The position numbers were made by a program, and so were the translations under genes. The notes beneath the pieces are model-generated. The model made no database searches. It saw only the letters and a program-made list of their open reading frames with translations, and had not been told where the DNA came from. 64,000 nt of DNA from Bacteroidales bacterium. Its GTDB lineage: Bacteria; Bacteroidota; Bacteroidia; Bacteroidales; UBA932. The first letter of the stretch is position 1. Each line of letters starts with the position of its first letter. The stretch lies in the NCBI GenBank assembly GCA_024402135.1, contig JAKSJN010000012.1, positions 1 to 64,000 on the forward strand, written 5' to 3'. Positions 2,233 through 10,924 of this stretch are shown here, piece after piece.

Positions 2233-3162
2233 ATGAATAAGAATATTGCAGTCTTAGCCCTGGCTTCCATCTGTTTCCTGGCTTGTTCCAAGCCGTCGTC
2301 TTTTGTAGAAATGGTGGATGTCGAGGGCGGTGTTTTCCTGATGGGTGCACATACTTCTGAACTTGACTGGGCTACACAGGATGATCTTCCTGCCCATATG
2401 GTGCGCCTTAGCGACTACAAGATCAGCAAGTATGAGATTACTGTCGGACAGTTCAAGACCTTTGTCGATGAGACCGGATATGTGACTCTTGCGGAGAGGA
2501 GGGATACCCTTGTCGACAAGCTTTACAAGAGCTGGATTGTCGATACTACTGGTGGCGTATCCCGGCAAGTCCAGGTCGATTCTGTGATTTCCTGGCGAAA
2601 CGGCATGTTCGGACAGAGGCTTACTCCAGATGATTATGACCTTCCTGTCGCAATGGTTACATTCGACGACTGCAAGGCATTCTGCCGGTGGCTGTCTGAA
2701 AAGGAAGGTGTCGAGTATGATCTTCCGACTGAGGCACAGTGGGAGTTTGCGGCCAGGGGGGGCAACCTGTCGCATGACTATTTCGCGTCTGGCAGCAATG
2801 ATGTCGACAAAGTGGCATGGTACGCTGACAATTCAGGCGGAGAACTGCATCCGGTCGGAAAAAAGATGGCCAACGAACTTGGAATTCATGACATGACGGG
2901 CAACGTCCGTGAATGGACTCTTGATCATTCCCTGGGCTATCGTGGTTTCGCGCATATCGATACTTTGGTGAATCCTGTCCTTCAAAGTAAAAGTATCACC
3001 TTTGACAATCATGTGGGACGAGGCAGTTCGTCCAATCTGACCGTCTCAAGATGCAGGAATTCCTATCGCACTGCTTTCCAGTCGGCAAAACATGGTGCCG
3101 GACTAGGTTTCAGGATAGTGCAGCGTTCGGAGCCGAACAGGATTTATTACTCCATTGACTAA
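2233..3162 (+). CDS. SUMF1/formylglycine-generating-enzyme-fold lipoprotein
   Basis: Predicted exported lipoprotein of 309 aa. The signal peptide ends in a lipobox with the lipidated Cys at residue 18 (ICFLAC). The rest is a SUMF1/FGE-sulfatase fold: the start EGGVFLMG, the KYEITVGQFKTF segment, LPTEAQWEFAARGG, MTGNVREWT and the final GLGFRIV are all diagnostic. In true formylglycine-generating enzyme two cysteines near the C-terminus are catalytic; here the matching region SRCRNSYR keeps one Cys and has Arg at the other place by eye. It may therefore be a structural or binding member, like GldK/GldJ-type proteins. The ATG at 2233 is preferred over an in-frame TTG at 2227. The first sensor gene starts 17 bases downstream, so the three genes are probably one operon. 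Confidence 0.87.
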   Translation: MNKNIAVLALASICFLACSKPSSFVEMVDVEGGVFLMGAHTSELDWATQDDLPAHMVRLSDYKISKYEITVGQFKTFVDETGYVTLAERRDTLVDKLYKSWIVDTTGGVSRQVQVDSVISWRNGMFGQRLTPDDYDLPVAMVTFDDCKAFCRWLSEKEGVEYDLPTEAQWEFAARGGNLSHDYFASGSNDVDKVAWYADNSGGELHPVGKKMANELGIHDMTGNVREWTLDHSLGYRGFAHIDTLVNPVLQSKSITFDNHVGRGSSSNLTVSRCRNSYRTAFQSAKHGAGLGFRIVQRSEPNRIYYSID

Positions 3163-3179
3163 TCTTAACTGATCATAAA

Positions 3180-6100
3180 ATGAAAAATATACTTTTTGCA
3201 TTGGCTCTCTCGCTGGCACTGCCATTGATGCAGTTGCAAGCGAACAACATCAGGCCTGGAGATATCCAGAAGAAGACAATCTCGATTCTGGACGGATTGA
3301 GTTCTTCCAACGTGACCTGTATTTCATCAGATCAGGATGGTCATCTATGGGTTGGAACGGATGAAGGCTTCAATATCATCAACAATGGCCATGTTTTTCC
3401 TTTCAGCCAATATCAGCAGGAGGGAGATACCCTGAGGAGAAGGATCGGTAAAGTCGAAGCGATGGCCGTATCCCAGCACAGGGCACTGATAGCGTCTGAA
3501 TCAGGATTGCTCTTGTTTGATAACAAGACAGGTAATTACAAGGAGATCCTGCAGAATGGCAGGAGCATGGAAGTTACCGCAATCGCAGAACTTGGAGATG
3601 GCAAGGGCGGTTTTTATCTGTTCGATTCCGCATCAAACTGTCTTTTCCTTTCTTCTGTTGAAAATGGAGAGCTGCGCCTTGTCAGGGATTTTGGTGAGAA
3701 TGTGAGCTACAGATTCGGAAAGATTCTGACTCATCCGGAAAAGGAAGATGTTCTGTTCTTTGCTGATGATGAAAAGGGTGTCTTTACAATGCCGATCAGT
3801 TCCGGAAAGCTGACCAAGGTCGTTCCTGGAGATGAGAAGATTGTAGCCAAGAGCTGCATTCTTGATAATGAGGGCAGAATCTGGGTGTCAAAGTTCGGAA
3901 AGGGTTTTTCCTCATATCCTGTCGACGGCCGTCACAACATCGGAACAAGCCTTACTACCGCAAATTCCGAGCTTCCAAGCGACTATGTCAACAGTGCTCT
4001 TCTGCTTACAAATGGCAATATCGCTGTTTCGACGGATGCCGGAGTCTGTGTGATCAACAGACCTGATGGCCGGATCGAGTCCATTACCGACCACTCGGCA
4101 TGGTTCTCTACCGCTCTCTTTACTACATCGCCACTTGAATTGATTGTCGGTACACGCTTCAACGGCATACATGAACTGCGTCGTACATCGCTTCATTCTA
4201 TCGGGCATTCACATGACGCTTCAGGTTTTTCTCTTCCAGCCGAGGTGATTCTGTCTTCGCTTCCAGGGCACGACGGTGATCTCTGGCTTGGAACGGCAGG
4301 AGGAGGCCTTTATCTTTTCAATGAGTATGAGCGCAGTCTGGAAACCTTCAAGTCAACACAGGGCAATCAGATTTCTTCCATCTGCAATCTGAATGAGAAC
4401 ACGCTCCTTGCGGTTTCCCGTTTCGAGGGACTGAAGGTTTTCAACAAGAAGGATTCCGGTTTTGCTCCATATCATCTGAACTGTATGGATGCTTCATCCG
4501 ATGGCAGGGAAGACTACGTGAACATCCTGCTGAGCAACGCGGCAGACGGCTCCATTCTTATATTCAATCTCGATGGCAGGTGCTGCCGTCTCAGGAATGG
4601 GCAGGAAGAGGTGTTCCAATTGTTTCCAATGGATTCGAAAGAGAAGATAGATAAGGTATTCTCTCATAGATTCACCAATGTCCTGGTCGGAAAGAGAAAG
4701 ATCTATGCCATGGACAACCGCGATGAATTATGGTTAAGGACTGTGCTTTCGACCGATGAGGACATACTGTCTTCTACCATAGATGACGAATGCAACATCT
4801 GGTTCATTACACGTTCGGGTGTATACAGACATGTCCTTTCTACCTCCGAGACTGAACGGGTGGTTGCCCAAGACAAAGACCACCGTTTCAATGGCATTCA
4901 GTACATCGATGATCAGGTTTGGCTGTCAGGCCGGGATCGCTGCCTGTACCGCTATTCAGTCAAAGACAAGGTTATGTCTGCATTCTCTGAGGAGGATGGC
5001 ATCCTTCCTGGCAACGATTTCTCCGGAATGTCTTTCAGGTCGGAGAATGCATGTTATTTTGCTGGTCTTGAGGGGGTGGTCGCAGCAGTTCCATCCGAGT
5101 CGCCTGTTCCTGTCCGCAGTCTCGGATTTGATATCGAGTGCCTCACCATGGCCGTGGATGGCAAGACGGCAAGGTATGAAAAGGGTAATTATGTGCTTCC
5201 AAAGCAATATAACAGGGCAATCCTGATTCTGTCTGTAATCTCACCTTCAGCCATCACACCGGCATTGTTCAGGTATGAGATGGTTGACAGGTCAGGGCAC
5301 GTAATTGCATCCTCGGAAGTCAGTGATCCTGTGGTTTCAATCGGAAGATTGCCATCTGGAGTTCATTCATTGCGTGTTTCTTCATTTGATGGAAACGGAT
5401 GGACCGGGTATAAGGAGGTCGCCAGGATTCTTCGCACAAGTGATTTATTGCCAGAGTCCCTCGTTGTCTTCGTATTGTCTTTCCTGCTGGCTGCACTCTG
5501 CCTCTATCTTTATACCATGCTTATGAAGAGAAACAAGGAAAAAGCCAGTTTCAAGGACTACGTGGATACCATCAAGAATGATAACCGTAAAATCCGGGCT
5601 GATTTCAATGCCAATGTAGTACGTGAAATCAGCTCTCCACTGACCATGATTTCGGATCAGCTCAAGTCCATTATGGCTCAGAACAGTGGCAATGACGTTC
5701 TTGAGAAACAACTGAAGGATGTGCTGCATCAGGCAGGCAGGCTCAAGGGCTGGCTTGGAATAATACATCCATTCACGCAGACCGGAATCTCATACCAAAG
5801 ACCAGGGATAGAGGTTATTTCCATTGATGAGTGTCTCCAGGAGATAATGAATGACAATGCCATGTCTGCAAAGAATAGGAAACTCATCTTGGAGTATATC
5901 CCTTCGTCAGCTCCATTGGTAGCCAATACAAACCGAGGCTATTTTTCTGATGCGATCGGCATGTTTATATTGAATGCATTCGTAAATCACGCCAAGAGCA
6001 CGGTCAGAATCAGTTCATCGACCACGAATCTTGGATACGTCAGGGTTTCAGTCATTGATGATGGCGACTCATATCCGGGAGATTATGATGACCTGTTCTC

Positions 6101-7184
6101 TTCATCATCCGGTATGCTGACATCTGATGGATTCTCGGCCATGGGACTGGCTGCCGTCCGTGCAAGGCTCGAGTCAATCGGAGGTAAAGTGTCCGGCTAC
6201 AGGAATGTGGATCAGGGAGGCTCGACGTTCTACGTAGATGTCCCTGTGGCTCCAGATAAGCAATCTGCAGCTGAAGCGCCTGTTGCAGCCGATTCCTCTA
6301 AGCCGGCTGGCAGACCAGAACCGGTGGTTGATCCTTCATTCTCTCCGGTCGAGGTTCCGGAGATCGGCGAGTATGAGAATGTATCCGAGATGCTTGATGT
6401 CGATAGCTTTGATACAAAAGACCAGACTCTTCTGATCGTTGATGATGAGCCTGATGTAAGGGAGTATCTTTCAACTGTATATGCTTCAAGATTCAAGACC
6501 ATATACGTTGCTGCCGATGGTAAGGAAGGCCTTGAGGTAGCAAGAGAGAAACAGCCTAACATAATTGTATCAGATGTAAAGATGCCGAAGATGAATGGTT
6601 TCGAGTTCTGCAAGGCTGTCAAGTCTGACATCGAGATTTCCCATCTTCCATTCATTCTGCTCACTTCGCTTGCCGAATCCAAGAGCCAGGAAATCGGATA
6701 CAAGATGGGTGCGGATGTCTTCATCCCTAAGCCATTCGATACCAAGATGCTTTATAACGCCATTCAGACTCAGCTCCGCAACAGATATGAGATCAAGAAG
6801 CGTTACTTCTCGTCGGCTCTACCTGAAATCACCGAGGAGCAGACGTTCAGTGCTGCGGATGAGTCCTTCGTGCTGAAACTCAACAAGTTCATCAATGACA
6901 ACATCAGCAACCCTGATCTCAATATCGATATGATTCTCAATGAGATGTGTGTTTCCAGGTCGACCCTTTTCAATAAGATGAACAGCATTATCGGAGTTTC
7001 TGCTGCGAGATATATAAAGAATATCAGGGTTGAAAGAGCCAAGAACCTGCTTTCAAAGACATCGATGACAATCTTTGAGGTCGCATCCGAAGTTGGTTTC
7101 ACTGAAAGCCAGTATTTCAGCACTGTTTTCAAGCAGGAGACAGGATTTACTCCATCTCAGTATCGTAGCCAGAATAGCAAGTAA
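3180..7184 (+). CDS. Hybrid two-component sensor/regulator with degenerate kinase and intact AraC domain
   Basis: One-piece signalling protein of 1334 aa. In order: signal peptide (about 1-22), periplasmic beta-propellers with Reg_prop repeats such as HLWVGTDEGFNII and DLWLGTAGGGL (about 25-660), a Y_Y_Y-type beta-sandwich (about 690-750), one membrane helix (about 758-780), a kinase region (about 790-1020), a receiver (about 1083-1195, phospho-Asp 1132 in SDVKMP) and a full AraC-type helix-turn-helix pair (about 1225-1332). The H-box reads VVREISSPL, so residue 815 is Arg (codon CGT, 5622-5624) where His is expected. The glycines of the ATP-binding G-boxes are also partly lost (DDGDSYP, FSAMGLA). 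It probably cannot phosphorylate itself but can still receive phosphate and bind DNA. The next gene is its paralog and starts 3 bases after the stop. Confidence 0.92.
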   Translation: MKNILFALALSLALPLMQLQANNIRPGDIQKKTISILDGLSSSNVTCISSDQDGHLWVGTDEGFNIINNGHVFPFSQYQQEGDTLRRRIGKVEAMAVSQHRALIASESGLLLFDNKTGNYKEILQNGRSMEVTAIAELGDGKGGFYLFDSASNCLFLSSVENGELRLVRDFGENVSYRFGKILTHPEKEDVLFFADDEKGVFTMPISSGKLTKVVPGDEKIVAKSCILDNEGRIWVSKFGKGFSSYPVDGRHNIGTSLTTANSELPSDYVNSALLLTNGNIAVSTDAGVCVINRPDGRIESITDHSAWFSTALFTTSPLELIVGTRFNGIHELRRTSLHSIGHSHDASGFSLPAEVILSSLPGHDGDLWLGTAGGGLYLFNEYERSLETFKSTQGNQISSICNLNENTLLAVSRFEGLKVFNKKDSGFAPYHLNCMDASSDGREDYVNILLSNAADGSILIFNLDGRCCRLRNGQEEVFQLFPMDSKEKIDKVFSHRFTNVLVGKRKIYAMDNRDELWLRTVLSTDEDILSSTIDDECNIWFITRSGVYRHVLSTSETERVVAQDKDHRFNGIQYIDDQVWLSGRDRCLYRYSVKDKVMSAFSEEDGILPGNDFSGMSFRSENACYFAGLEGVVAAVPSESPVPVRSLGFDIECLTMAVDGKTARYEKGNYVLPKQYNRAILILSVISPSAITPALFRYEMVDRSGHVIASSEVSDPVVSIGRLPSGVHSLRVSSFDGNGWTGYKEVARILRTSDLLPESLVVFVLSFLLAALCLYLYTMLMKRNKEKASFKDYVDTIKNDNRKIRADFNANVVREISSPLTMISDQLKSIMAQNSGNDVLEKQLKDVLHQAGRLKGWLGIIHPFTQTGISYQRPGIEVISIDECLQEIMNDNAMSAKNRKLILEYIPSSAPLVANTNRGYFSDAIGMFILNAFVNHAKSTVRISSSTTNLGYVRVSVIDDGDSYPGDYDDLFSSSSGMLTSDGFSAMGLAAVRARLESIGGKVSGYRNVDQGGSTFYVDVPVAPDKQSAAEAPVAADSSKPAGRPEPVVDPSFSPVEVPEIGEYENVSEMLDVDSFDTKDQTLLIVDDEPDVREYLSTVYASRFKTIYVAADGKEGLEVAREKQPNIIVSDVKMPKMNGFEFCKAVKSDIEISHLPFILLTSLAESKSQEIGYKMGADVFIPKPFDTKMLYNAIQTQLRNRYEIKKRYFSSALPEITEEQTFSAADESFVLKLNKFINDNISNPDLNIDMILNEMCVSRSTLFNKMNSIIGVSAARYIKNIRVERAKNLLSKTSMTIFEVASEVGFTESQYFSTVFKQETGFTPSQYRSQNSK

Positions 7185-7187
7185 GAA

Positions 7188-10100
7188 ATGAAAAGCCTCC
7201 GTACCCTATTAGTCGCGGCTCTTGCTCTGGTGGCATGTTCCGCAATCCACGCCGGAGAAGTTGCATACCGGCGTTTCCTTCCTGACCAGGAAGTCCGGTT
7301 CATGACCCTTGATGATCATTGTCGTCTTTGGGTGGGAACCAATGATGGTTTCTCGATCATAAATAACGCAATAGTCCGTAGTTTCACGGTTTCGGATCCA
7401 TCTATGAACCAGCTGTCGGATGCGGCTGTATCATATATAGTTCCTTCCGGAAAGCAGGCTCTGCTGGCTACCTCAAACACGCTTTTCCTCTTTGATATAG
7501 AAACTCAGGAATTTGAGGAGATAACACTTGAGAAAAAGAAACTGTCAGTCGATGCTGTGTCATTCTATTCTGACAAGGCCTATCTCTACTCGATTTCGGA
7601 CCAGGCACTGTACAGTTTCTCGTTCGCCTCAAAAAGTCTGGAGGTATGTTACCGTTTTGACCAGCATGACCGCTATCAGTTCAGAAGCATTTCGGTAGGA
7701 TATGATAACTATCTTCTTCTGGCGGACAATAACCTGGGTATCTTCAAGTATGACCTGTATAACGACACGTTGGAACATGTTGATGAGCTTCCCGAGAACA
7801 TCATCGCATCTGCTGTCACGATAAGCCAGGACAGGTCTCATCTCTGGGTCCCTGGTCCATTCGGAATCAATTGCTACAAAATCTCAGGCGAACAGCTCAG
7901 CCTCGTGTCGACATTCTCACGCGAAGCGGGTACGTTGAATACCAACGATACACAGGACATCGTTGCGGTTACAGACAATGCCTATGTCGTTGCCCAGGGT
8001 TACGGTCTGTTGCGTCTCGATGCCAAGAACGGCACGACTCAGAGGTATGTAGGTGGTTTCACCAACAATCTGATCAAGATTGTTGCACCAAGGTATAGCC
8101 CGACCATCATCGGTGGCACTTCATACAATGGCATCATCAGTGGCAAGGACAAGATGATTACTGAACTTTCCAGTACAGCCATCTCAAACTCGACATTGAC
8201 CAGCAGTACCGTTACATCATATCTGGATACAAATGACGGACTTGTATGGCTGGGAACAGCAGGTAACGGAATAAACAGCTATGACCAGTTGACTCATGAA
8301 GTGAGAAAATACCCTCTGCCTTCGACAGGAACGGTCACTTCCATGGCACAATATGGTGAAGATCGGATTCTTTGTGTCATCAACCATAGTGATGTCGCGC
8401 TGTTCTCGAAAATAAGCGGGAAGATAGAGCAGGAAACGATTCCATCCCTCGAGAGTCTCCTTGCAGACATCGATACAGACAGTCAGGTCATGGTTGCTGA
8501 CGCTGGAAGAGGTTCTTTCTACGTCCTCAACGTGAACGGAATCAACTACAGGCTGACACCTGGAGTGAACAATATCGAGTCATTTGTTCTCGGAACCAGA
8601 GACAACCCTGACCGGGTCGTTGGAATAGAGGTTGCACGCAACTCGACTTTCATTCACAGCAACGATGCGGTATATGAACTTGATAACGGCAGCATGATGG
8701 TCCGCAGGCTGTATTACGACGACGAGAATCAGATTCGTGATATCAGCTGCGTGGGTGATGAAACTGTGTATGTTGCTCTCCGTGATGGACTGATCCGTAT
8801 CGATGCCAGGAACAGCAGCTATGAAGACGCCTCCGATATTCTTGATTCAGAGCAGGCGCTGGGTATCTGTTTTGATGGCAAAGGGGTCCTGTGGGCTCTG
8901 ACAGACAGGAATTTCCTGATGTGTTCCGACCTGGCGACAGGCAAGAGAAGATATTTCCCTGAGGCCGGTTATGGCCAGTATTCCGGTTTCTTCTCTTACT
9001 CTACAAAAGAGAACAATCTGTTCTTCTCAAGATCCTCCGGTGTTCTGACCATAGATGTCGATGAACTCATAAATCATGAAGATGACACGGTCAAGCCGCG
9101 TATCGCAATCGAGCGTCTGAGCCTCAATGGTGAGGCTATGGAAATGCCGCTGGGAACAAACAGGATTGAATTCCCATCGAACAATAACTTCTTCGAATTT
9201 GATATCCTTGTCATTTCTGACGACCCTATGTCACAGGTGCCTGTCAATCTCTCGATACACAACAAGAAAGGTGAGTGGGGCTCTCTGTATGGCAGTATCA
9301 CGACCTATACCATATCCAGATTCAATCCAGGCAAGTACCAGATCAAGGTATCCATGCTGACATCCTCCGGATGGACCGATGAAGAGACCATCCTTGAGGT
9401 TCATGTCCACAGTCCATGGTACTTTACCTGGTGGGCGCTGCTTTTGGCCTTGCTTGTACTGGTCGGTATCTTCTTCGCTGAAAGTCTGGTGATCAAGTCA
9501 AAGAGAAAGAGGAGCCTGGAAAAGACAGCGAACATCATCGAGCACCAGAAGACCGAGGAGAAGATATCTCTTATGGCAAATCTGGCTCATGACCTGAGAT
9601 CGCCGCTGTCGCTTGTCAGGAATATGATAGTCTCGGTAATGGATGAGCATGAGGATGACGCATTCGTGTCAAAGACACTGGGCGGTACCTTGCCTCAGAT
9701 ATCCCGTATGACCGACATGATCAACATGATCCTGAGCACCCAGAAGATGGATGCGACAAGTGAAGAAGTGAAATATGAAGTCATCAATCTTAACAAGTGG
9801 ATTTCCGACAGACTTGAGTATGAATATAAGCCGAAGTGCGTAGCCAAGGGTCTCCAGCTGGAATTCATTCCGGAAAAGCGACTCAAGGAGATCAACATGG
9901 ATGCGTCAAAGATCTATGCATGCTTCCAGAACCTGATGACGAATGCGATAAAGTTCAGTGAGGAAGGAACGATCACGGTATCCACAGAGATCGTGAACAA
10001 CTATATCCGCGTAAGCGTCGCTGATGAGGGCTGCGGATTCAGCGGTCCGGTGGAAGACCTGTTCAAGAAGTTCTATCGTCAGCAGACATCGGTTGCCGGC

Positions 10101-10886
10101 TATGGCCTTGGGCTGGCCTATGTCAAGACCCTCGTCGAGAAACTTGGCGGAGTCGTGTCAGCGTATCATAATCTTTCCGGAGTCGGTTCAACCTTCTATT
10201 TTGACGTTCCTCTTATCAATGTCGAGGGAGCTGCTACTGCTGTCGAAAGAGAACGCAATGTTGAATACGACAGCCGCCATGACATCCTCATGGTAGTCGA
10301 CGACCAGAAAGACATCAGAGAGTATGTCTGCAATCTGTTCAAGGATAAATTCAAGAAGATCCTGACCGCACCGGACGGACTCCAGGCTCTGCAGATCATC
10401 AAGGACAGGCATCCGGACCTTATCATCAGTGACCTTATCATGCCGAACATGGATGGTTTCGAACTCTGCAAGCAGGTTAAGTCTACAACAGAGATAAGCC
10501 ATATCCCGTTCGTGCTCTTCTCAACCAAGGAAGACGCGCTTGGACAGCACATCAGCTACAAGCTCGGTCCTGATGACTGTATCGCCAAGCCTTTTGATGT
10601 CAAGCTTCTCGCAGATATCATCAAGTTCCAGCTTAAGAGCCGCAGAAAGTTCAAGGATGCCATGCGGGCAAAGGAAATCAAGAGGATCGGCAAGGAGATG
10701 CTTATCAGCAAGGCTGACGAAGACTTCATCGCGCTTCTTGATACTTTCATTCTCCGTGGTAATGCTACATCGGAGACATGCGCAGAGCATATGGGTATGT
10801 TCGAGAGGGATTTTGATAACAAACTCGAGTCCCTTACCGGCCTGAGGGCAGAAGACTACATCCAGATGGTCATTTTGAATGATTGA
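7188..10886 (+). CDS. Hybrid two-component sensor kinase with truncated AraC domain
   Basis: Paralog of the preceding protein, 1232 aa. It has an N-terminal export signal, beta-propeller Reg_prop repeats (RLWVGTNDGFSII, LVWLGTAGNGI), a Y_Y_Y-type domain, a membrane helix (about 744-768), a histidine kinase core and a receiver (about 1033-1150). The kinase looks intact: His 801 in AHDLRSPLSL, N-box LMTNAIKFS, G-boxes DEGCGF and YGLGLAYVK. The receiver has acidic residues VVDDQ, phospho-Asp 1082 in SDLIMP and Lys in AKPFD. The final 80 residues hold only the first half of an AraC helix-turn-helix region and stop after GLRAEDYIQMVILND. The second helix-turn-helix is absent, and trkA starts 38 bases later, so it is not hidden by a frameshift. 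It is probably a kinase that no longer binds DNA. Confidence 0.92.
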   Translation: MKSLRTLLVAALALVACSAIHAGEVAYRRFLPDQEVRFMTLDDHCRLWVGTNDGFSIINNAIVRSFTVSDPSMNQLSDAAVSYIVPSGKQALLATSNTLFLFDIETQEFEEITLEKKKLSVDAVSFYSDKAYLYSISDQALYSFSFASKSLEVCYRFDQHDRYQFRSISVGYDNYLLLADNNLGIFKYDLYNDTLEHVDELPENIIASAVTISQDRSHLWVPGPFGINCYKISGEQLSLVSTFSREAGTLNTNDTQDIVAVTDNAYVVAQGYGLLRLDAKNGTTQRYVGGFTNNLIKIVAPRYSPTIIGGTSYNGIISGKDKMITELSSTAISNSTLTSSTVTSYLDTNDGLVWLGTAGNGINSYDQLTHEVRKYPLPSTGTVTSMAQYGEDRILCVINHSDVALFSKISGKIEQETIPSLESLLADIDTDSQVMVADAGRGSFYVLNVNGINYRLTPGVNNIESFVLGTRDNPDRVVGIEVARNSTFIHSNDAVYELDNGSMMVRRLYYDDENQIRDISCVGDETVYVALRDGLIRIDARNSSYEDASDILDSEQALGICFDGKGVLWALTDRNFLMCSDLATGKRRYFPEAGYGQYSGFFSYSTKENNLFFSRSSGVLTIDVDELINHEDDTVKPRIAIERLSLNGEAMEMPLGTNRIEFPSNNNFFEFDILVISDDPMSQVPVNLSIHNKKGEWGSLYGSITTYTISRFNPGKYQIKVSMLTSSGWTDEETILEVHVHSPWYFTWWALLLALLVLVGIFFAESLVIKSKRKRSLEKTANIIEHQKTEEKISLMANLAHDLRSPLSLVRNMIVSVMDEHEDDAFVSKTLGGTLPQISRMTDMINMILSTQKMDATSEEVKYEVINLNKWISDRLEYEYKPKCVAKGLQLEFIPEKRLKEINMDASKIYACFQNLMTNAIKFSEEGTITVSTEIVNNYIRVSVADEGCGFSGPVEDLFKKFYRQQTSVAGYGLGLAYVKTLVEKLGGVVSAYHNLSGVGSTFYFDVPLINVEGAATAVERERNVEYDSRHDILMVVDDQKDIREYVCNLFKDKFKKILTAPDGLQALQIIKDRHPDLIISDLIMPNMDGFELCKQVKSTTEISHIPFVLFSTKEDALGQHISYKLGPDDCIAKPFDVKLLADIIKFQLKSRRKFKDAMRAKEIKRIGKEMLISKADEDFIALLDTFILRGNATSETCAEHMGMFERDFDNKLESLTGLRAEDYIQMVILND

Positions 10887-10904
10887 CGGAAAAAAGTATA
10901 TTTG
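10874..10904 (+). promoter_or_regulatory. Promoter of trkA
   Basis: TTTG at 10874-10877, a 19-base spacer and TATATTTG at 10897-10904. The -33 box lies inside the last codons of the second sensor gene. The expected start near 10911 supports translation from the ATG at 10925 and not from the upstream in-frame codon at 10883. Confidence 0.75.
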
Positions 10905-10924
10905 CACTTTGCGTCAATCATATT

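Follow-up and report, generated by a model that had tools for sequence, protein, structure and literature searches.

A tandem pair of Bacteroidales hybrid sensors with complementary domain losses as a candidate split two-component system

Hybrid two-component systems (HTCSs) of Bacteroides, such as BT4124 and BT4663, are built in the order propeller, Y_Y_Y, transmembrane segment, HisKA/HATPase_c, receiver, and AraC domain. These modules lie in one chain, and the fidelity of HTCSs has been ascribed to this tethering of kinase and regulator, with recognition between histidine kinase (HK) and receiver (REC) described as promiscuous in tethered HTCSs (PMC11253607). In the same work, an S/CHIP-DK contact holds the DNA-binding domain (DBD) inactive until the receiver is phosphorylated, receivers autophosphorylate with small-molecule donors in the assay used, and a phosphorylation-independent mode of action is proposed for deviating HTCSs, for example BT4236, which has CSIP-EK and Gln848 at the kinase His position (PMC11253607). 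All 36 HTCSs of B. thetaiotaomicron are reported to have a C-terminal AraC-type domain, and HTCS DNA sites are interpreted as direct repeats bound by dimers, with an average spacing of 21 bp (PMC3878776). We analyzed a 64,000-nucleotide stretch of a Bacteroidales genome (GCA_024402135.1, contig JAKSJN010000012.1, positions 1 to 64,000; hereafter the window) that contains two adjacent HTCS paralogs, HTCS1 and HTCS2, with the same module order and the S/CHIP-DK motif present or nearly so, but with kinase and DNA-binding output on two proteins. We propose, at a probability of roughly 0.6, that the two polypeptides share the functions of one hybrid two-component system, with HTCS2 phosphorylating HTCS1 in trans.

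Caulobacter DivL, which controls CckA, takes its input from a response regulator; unlike HTCS1, it has no DNA-binding output. DivL is a pseudokinase and CckA the live hybrid kinase with which it works (PMC4211667, PMC5361649, PMC9430884). Corynebacterium glutamicum offers a precedent for the window pair in ChrS/HrrS, where ChrS is dead and its regulator ChrA is phosphorylated by the live paralog HrrS, although this is a laboratory-evolved mutant with separate response regulators and the kinases are not hybrids (PMC9491836). In two-hybrid assays the native kinases heterodimerise, and truncated ChrS gave no significant heterodimer signal (PMC9491836). Two HTCS paralogs at one locus of B. thetaiotaomicron, BT4178 and BT4182, have a proposed shared DNA motif and joint regulon; compared by description only, they are reported as two regulators with AraC domains, and the passage on them mentions no complementary loss (PMC3878776). 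BT4236 is like HTCS1 in having a phospho-acceptor site other than His, but its motif is non-consensus where HTCS1 has SHLP-DK (PMC11253607); HTCS1 adjoins a paralog with an active-looking kinase core, and BT4236 was compared by kinase site and motif alone. No split HTCS was found in the literature at the level of titles and abstract openings, a search with most subscription journals outside its coverage and so no proof of absence in print.

Domain anatomy of HTCS1 and HTCS2

The sensor genes and their domains are as follows.

3180–7184, + strand: HTCS1, pseudokinase hybrid sensor, 1334 aa, receiver and AraC domain intact
5565–5795, + strand: HTCS1 DHp region; Arg815 (codon 5622–5624) replaces the phospho-acceptor His; HisKA 11.9 bits (cut-off 26.9)
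5967–6251, + strand: HTCS1 degenerate ATP-binding (CA) domain; HATPase_c 26.0 bits, under the cut-off of 26.4
6432–6767, + strand: HTCS1 receiver; phospho-Asp1132 (codon 6573–6575), SHLP loop; REC 77.3 bits
6939–7169, + strand: HTCS1 complete AraC domain; HTH_18 67.8 bits
7188–10886, + strand: HTCS2, hybrid sensor, 1232 aa, kinase and receiver intact, AraC domain halved
9567–9755, + strand: HTCS2 DHp; His801 (codon 9588–9590); HisKA 24.7 bits, just below the cut-off of 26.9
9900–10214, + strand: HTCS2 CA domain, intact; HATPase_c 70.7 bits
10290–10622, + strand: HTCS2 receiver; phospho-Asp1082 (codon 10431–10433), SHIP loop; REC 74.8 bits
10707–10886, + strand: HTCS2 half AraC domain; first helix-turn-helix only, D and K of SHIP-DK kept

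The genes are 3 bases apart on the same strand with both frames open. The proteins are collinear near full length (306 bits, 24% identity over 1270 columns) and are therefore paralogs. A tree joined them with SH-aLRT 99, with a long-branch warning, and when either was removed the remaining one was placed in the same 24-row clade. Pfam matches to Reg_prop, HATPase_c, and REC in both proteins and to HTH_18 in HTCS1, with transmembrane segments read by eye, give the module order expected of HTCSs; Y_Y_Y was below cut-off in HTCS2.

HTCS1 lacks the phospho-acceptor His and the usual ATP-binding motifs. Its H-box (NVVREISSPL) has Arg815 at the kinase His position, which is Gln in its ortholog from a sister species, genome G225 (H-box NVLQVMGLQR), and its G1 (DDGDSY) and G2 (SAMGLA) motifs are altered in both species. 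HTCS2 has these features intact: H-box NLAHDLRSPL, N-box NLMTNA, G1 DEGCGF, and G2 GYGLGL. At the other end the situation is reversed, as HTCS1 contains a complete AraC-type DNA-binding domain and the end of HTCS2 (ADEDF...DYIQMVILND) is alignable only with the first half of AraC domains. It stops after the first helix-turn-helix, the second is missing in both species, and the Pfam search gave no HTH match in HTCS2. The original prediction, made from the sequence alone, had described just this: adjacent paralogous hybrid sensors in open frames, the first with Arg at its H-box, weak ATP-binding motifs, and a complete receiver and AraC domain, the second with an intact kinase core and receiver and no complete DNA-binding domain. 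Its description holds throughout, including the coordinates.

The REC-DBD motif reads SHLP-DK in HTCS1 (Leu for Ile) and SHIP-DK in HTCS2, in both species, with the D and K columns placed by alignment and by the expected helix positions rather than by direct comparison with BT4124. The hydrophobic core columns of DHp were kept hydrophobic in 21/27 positions of HTCS1 from the window, 16/27 of HTCS1 from G225, and 22/27 of each HTCS2.

Retention and constraint in a sister species

The search of 400 same-genus genomes for HTCS1 yielded a single true ortholog, that of G225 (67% identity); identity in the remaining matches with E up to 1e-75 was 25–32%. The HTCS2 ortholog in G225 is 73% identical, and the pair occurred in two of 361 same-genus genomes with a completeness of 75% or more (E up to 1e-102), the window's own and G225. 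A scan of named genomes with protein P0001 gave 49 loci and no ortholog, the best showing 34% identity across its receiver and AraC regions. G225 HTCS2 has the same H-box, the same DYIQMVILND stop, and the same end codon as in the window, and the order FKBP, GT2, lipoprotein, HTCS1, HTCS2, TrkA, ABC-F is common to both genomes. Co-occurrence of the His change and the short C-terminus in adjacent genes of a relative had been set beforehand as a test of the original prediction, and it was found in G225; the co-inheritance of both losses in 2/2 genomes carrying the pair amounts to one independent comparison. No ortholog among the genomes searched had retained both His residues together with both AraC domains, and the G225 copies contained no stops or frameshifts. 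Both genes thus stay in frame, a condition raised in the original prediction, despite saturated synonymous change (pS 0.75 each). Because of this saturation no exact dN/dS is available for either sensor gene; dS was 1.1–1.5 in four neighbor genes.

Conservation between the window and G225 mirrors the losses in each protein. In HTCS1, identity was 495/728 in the sensor, 20/76 (26%) in DHp, 93/142 in CA, 106/119 (89%) in REC, and 50/52 (96%) and 42/47 (89%) in the AraC halves. In HTCS2 it was 492/720 in the sensor, 63/77 (82%) in DHp, 130/145 (90%) in CA, 103/119 (87%) in REC, and 30/48 in the first AraC half, the second half being absent in both species. The two sensor domains were equally conserved at 68% each. 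A control HTCS from the same genomes, L129/L130 (76% identical), had 536/736 in the sensor, 70/83 (84%) in DHp, 112/143 in CA, 109/118 in REC, and 51/52 and 45/47 in the AraC halves, and a second control, L127/L128 (95% identical overall), had 76/81 in DHp. HTCS1 DHp was loose by Fisher's test relative to both L129/L130 (p=9e-14) and HTCS2 DHp (p=3e-12), and HTCS2 was loose relative to the control in its AraC half. The whole HTCS1 CA domain differed from the control at p=0.018, with the looseness in its first half; the C-terminal half matched at 66/79 versus 60/79 in L129/L130 despite the altered nucleotide motifs, which suggests that this part retains a structural or regulatory role. The transmembrane segment and CA-REC linker of HTCS1 were variable (identity 0.39 and 0.43, values without a control comparison).

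Nonsynonymous change (dN) followed the same pattern: 0.75 in the HTCS1 linker and DHp, 0.07 in its REC, and 0.05 in its AraC domain, with 0.07–0.11 across DHp, CA, and REC of HTCS2. Both species retain the HTCS2 kinase motifs, as well as the Asp, Thr/Ser, and Lys residues in each of the two receivers. By these measures the complementarity is conserved and under selection in the single species pair available. The two receivers changed at 13 and 17 columns, 5 of them shared (p=0.017), a co-variation we read as weak because variable sites alone could give the overlap.

Both losses are rare among the relatives compared. The H-box His was kept in 55/56 compared HTCSs and the second AraC half was missing in 0/57, with the pair and its G225 orthologs excluded; since the set consists mostly of matches to the two window proteins, with HTCSs of the same genomes, and is not a random sample, these figures describe relatives and not all HTCSs. 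The H-box count came from 63 rows minus 3 duplicates (L010, L011, L040), giving 60 proteins of which 4 were the pair and orthologs. Motif and AraC-half counts left out duplicates, the partial own-genome loci L001–L008, and 12 sequences without a KPF motif, 11 of which were by eye other reading frames or neighbor genes; the twelfth, L134, is an HTCS of the window's own genome with an HTH_18 match in its AraC domain. The tandem HTCS pair L116 (G068:C31, 2292–10345) is an unsplit equivalent of the window arrangement, chosen by eye among the matches listed, where other tandem pairs may exist. Both H-box His residues and both AraC domains are intact in L116, so tandem arrangement alone does not cause the loss.

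The proposed switch and its alternatives

The case for a split system is drawn from sequence and consists of the anatomy, the complementary losses, retention in two species, mirror-image constraint, the REC-DBD motif, and the co-occurrence of three genes (the sensors and a lipoprotein); from these we infer trans-phosphorylation, physical association (as a heterodimer or as clustered homodimers), and autoregulation. The periplasmic propeller of HTCS2 would sense a signal and HTCS2 would autophosphorylate at His801. The phosphate would then be handed on in trans to the HTCS1 receiver at Asp1132, as well as to Asp1082 of HTCS2 itself. Once the HTCS1 receiver is phosphorylated, the REC-DBD contact would cease to inhibit its AraC domain, whose target promoter would most likely be that of the cassette itself, in front of the lipoprotein gene. 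Because the sensor of HTCS1 is itself kept and constrained, this protein may also control the transfer in response to a second signal. HTCS2 would be the obvious donor because it is adjacent, co-inherited, has an intact kinase, and is without a complete output domain. The near-consensus SHLP-DK predicts phosphorylation-dependent DNA binding, and the phosphate of HTCS1 should then come in trans; the motif is suggestive only, a pointer to phosphorylation dependence and not proof. Since the sister species divides kinase and DNA-binding labor likewise, the two proteins probably function together as a single switch. The original prediction, that the second protein phosphorylates the receiver of the first across a heterodimer, is partly supported by the complementary losses, the paralogy, the open frames, and the joint occurrence of both losses in G225, and somewhat strengthened by SHLP-DK. 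More tentatively, and with the odds somewhat against it, the pair could be a two-receptor coincidence switch in which the HTCS2 ligand starts phosphorylation and the HTCS1 ligand, perhaps with the FGE lipoprotein, presents the receiver. If true, this would be a heteromeric HTCS arising from gene duplication and reciprocal loss.

HTCS1 could instead be a phosphorylation-independent membrane-bound transcription factor driven by conformational change of its sensor, as proposed for BT4236, with HTCS2 signaling elsewhere or merely modulating. The dead kinases of BT4236 and of a solo HTCS, L061 (G109:C26, 1492–5376, - strand), favor this, as does an HTCS1 sensor as conserved as that of HTCS2. In L061 the H-box His is replaced by Asn, HATPase_c is unmatched at E up to 0.01, receiver and AraC domain are intact, and the motif reads GHIP-EK; the neighbors of L061 by eye form a SusC/SusD-like locus with no HTCS adjacent, and G109 (~90% complete) yielded two other HTCSs with open frames of 1316 and 1329 residues. 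It is possibly a BT4236-like phosphorylation-independent regulator, and fits that type, with its missing His and non-consensus motif, better than HTCS1 does. We consider phosphorylation independence unlikely for HTCS1, though the most credible of the alternatives, given that HTCS2 lies 3 bases downstream with kinase core and receiver strictly conserved and no complete output domain, and that HTCS1 keeps its receiver active-site residues and SHLP-DK versus CSIP-EK in BT4236 and GHIP-EK in L061, a suggestive difference only. A slightly less credible alternative is that the HTCS1 receiver gets its phosphate from a different kinase, or from a small-molecule donor, while HTCS2 feeds another response regulator. 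Donors are conceivable, as the two genomes have 15 and 10 HATPase_c matches (pair included; some not kinases) and small-molecule phosphorylation of HTCS receivers is the assay of PMC11253607, but both sensors and the lipoprotein are together in 2/2 genomes and absent at this place in relatives, and the losses are complementary. HTCS2 might also be mainly a phosphatase, phosphate sink, or titrating partner that keeps HTCS1 inactive, a negative role to which we give a little less weight again: the retained receiver (87%) and a halved AraC domain that still has its SHIP-DK contact residues would suit it, whereas the kinase core is complete, with conservation on a par with that of the receiver, a pattern that does not distinguish kinase from phosphatase bias. 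Decay of the pair, which the original prediction had offered as an alternative, is very improbable. Each protein has lost a domain function and HTCS1 DHp is down to 26% identity, but both frames are open in two species at the pS given above, with dN of 0.05–0.07 in HTCS1 REC and AraC and 0.07–0.11 in the HTCS2 domains.

Several observations weigh against the split system. Support comes from a single independent comparison between two sister species. L061 is a dead-kinase HTCS without an HTCS neighbor, and together with BT4236 it indicates that a dead kinase alone needs no adjacent partner. The motif contrast between HTCS1 and L061 is weak because non-consensus forms occur in HTCSs with His (L057 GHIP-ER, L129/L130 CQLP-KK); SHLP-DK itself is also found in two HTCSs with intact His, L026 and L032. 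DHp is the fastest-evolving domain of HTCS1 (26%), which speaks against a strict DHp heterodimer bundle, and one heterodimer would bring one AraC domain versus the direct-repeat HTCS sites bound by dimers (PMC3878776). Transfer between co-localized dimers, or pairing via the periplasmic sensors, would be as likely as a classical DHp heterodimer. Further points on this side are the well-conserved C-terminal half of HTCS1 CA and the fixed C-terminus of HTCS2, the latter partly explained by an overlapping promoter.

A conserved pair with its tether undone by reciprocal loss would be a natural test of the tethering idea, raising the questions of how phosphate is confined to the right receiver without a common chain and whether one promoter can take input from two sensors. 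It would also illustrate how duplicated regulators, each a single chain, can become a heteromeric receptor.

The three-gene cassette and its flanks

The pair is accompanied by the following features.

2090–2232, + strand: cassette upstream region; -7 box TATATTTG at 2199–2206, ATCT (2176–2179) at the expected place of the TTTG -33 box
2154–2159 and 2182–2187: TTACTG repeats upstream of the cassette, 28 bp apart; third TTACTG at 2219
2233–3162, + strand: FGE/SUMF1-domain lipoprotein (P0003), first cassette gene; PF03781 164 bits, lipobox by eye
10874–10904, + strand: likely trkA promoter overlapping the HTCS2 end; TTTG 10874–10877, 19 bp, TATATTTG 10897–10904

The lipoprotein gene is a third gene traveling with the pair that was absent from the original prediction. 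At E up to 1e-50 it was found in 2/400 same-genus genomes, the same two as HTCS1, and its product could be a ligand-binding accessory or a regulated target. No SusC/SusD pair was recognized among the flanking genes examined.

The promoter consensus used for both the cassette and trkA is a TTTG -33 box with a -7 box TATATTTG. The cassette upstream region is identical to that of G225 in 105/146 aligned columns, and a 16-base block (2115–2130) occurs mismatch-free solely at this locus in the window's genome and G225. The TTACTG repeats are only candidate sites because their 28 bp spacing does not fit the published 21 bp average. A wider regulon sharing the promoter block was considered and none is claimed, as near matches numbered 30 versus 29 for a reversed-pattern control in G000 and 35 versus 19 in G225, where every match except the locus itself had three mismatches.

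Downstream, positions 10860–10920 are identical to G225 in 59/61 bases, and the last 10 HTCS2 codons are DNA-identical, compared with 438/897 codons gene-wide where the residue is the same. A perfect 10-base inverted repeat, ATGATTGACG / CGTCAATCAT (10879–10888, 10912–10921), flanks the TATATTTG box before trkA and is possibly an operator or RNA hairpin. At 18 other same-genus trkA loci, a GT2 match lay within 1.5 kb upstream in 16 (L145 was cut by a contig end and L153 was without a GT2 match), and a lipoprotein or HTCS match lay within that distance in 0/18; 6/31 genomes in this survey had no trkA match at cut-off. Because lipoprotein, HTCS1, and HTCS2 are absent at this place in relatives, the three genes look like a unit gained there. 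Truncation of HTCS2 at the insertion junction is plausible as the first step, and as its last codons lie in the likely trkA promoter, no selection for the split is needed to account for the truncation.

At the other end of the shared gene order, the FKBP-type isomerase (356–1021) has a long Cys/His-rich repeat tail, slightly changed in G225, that resembles those of metal-handling SlyD-like proteins.

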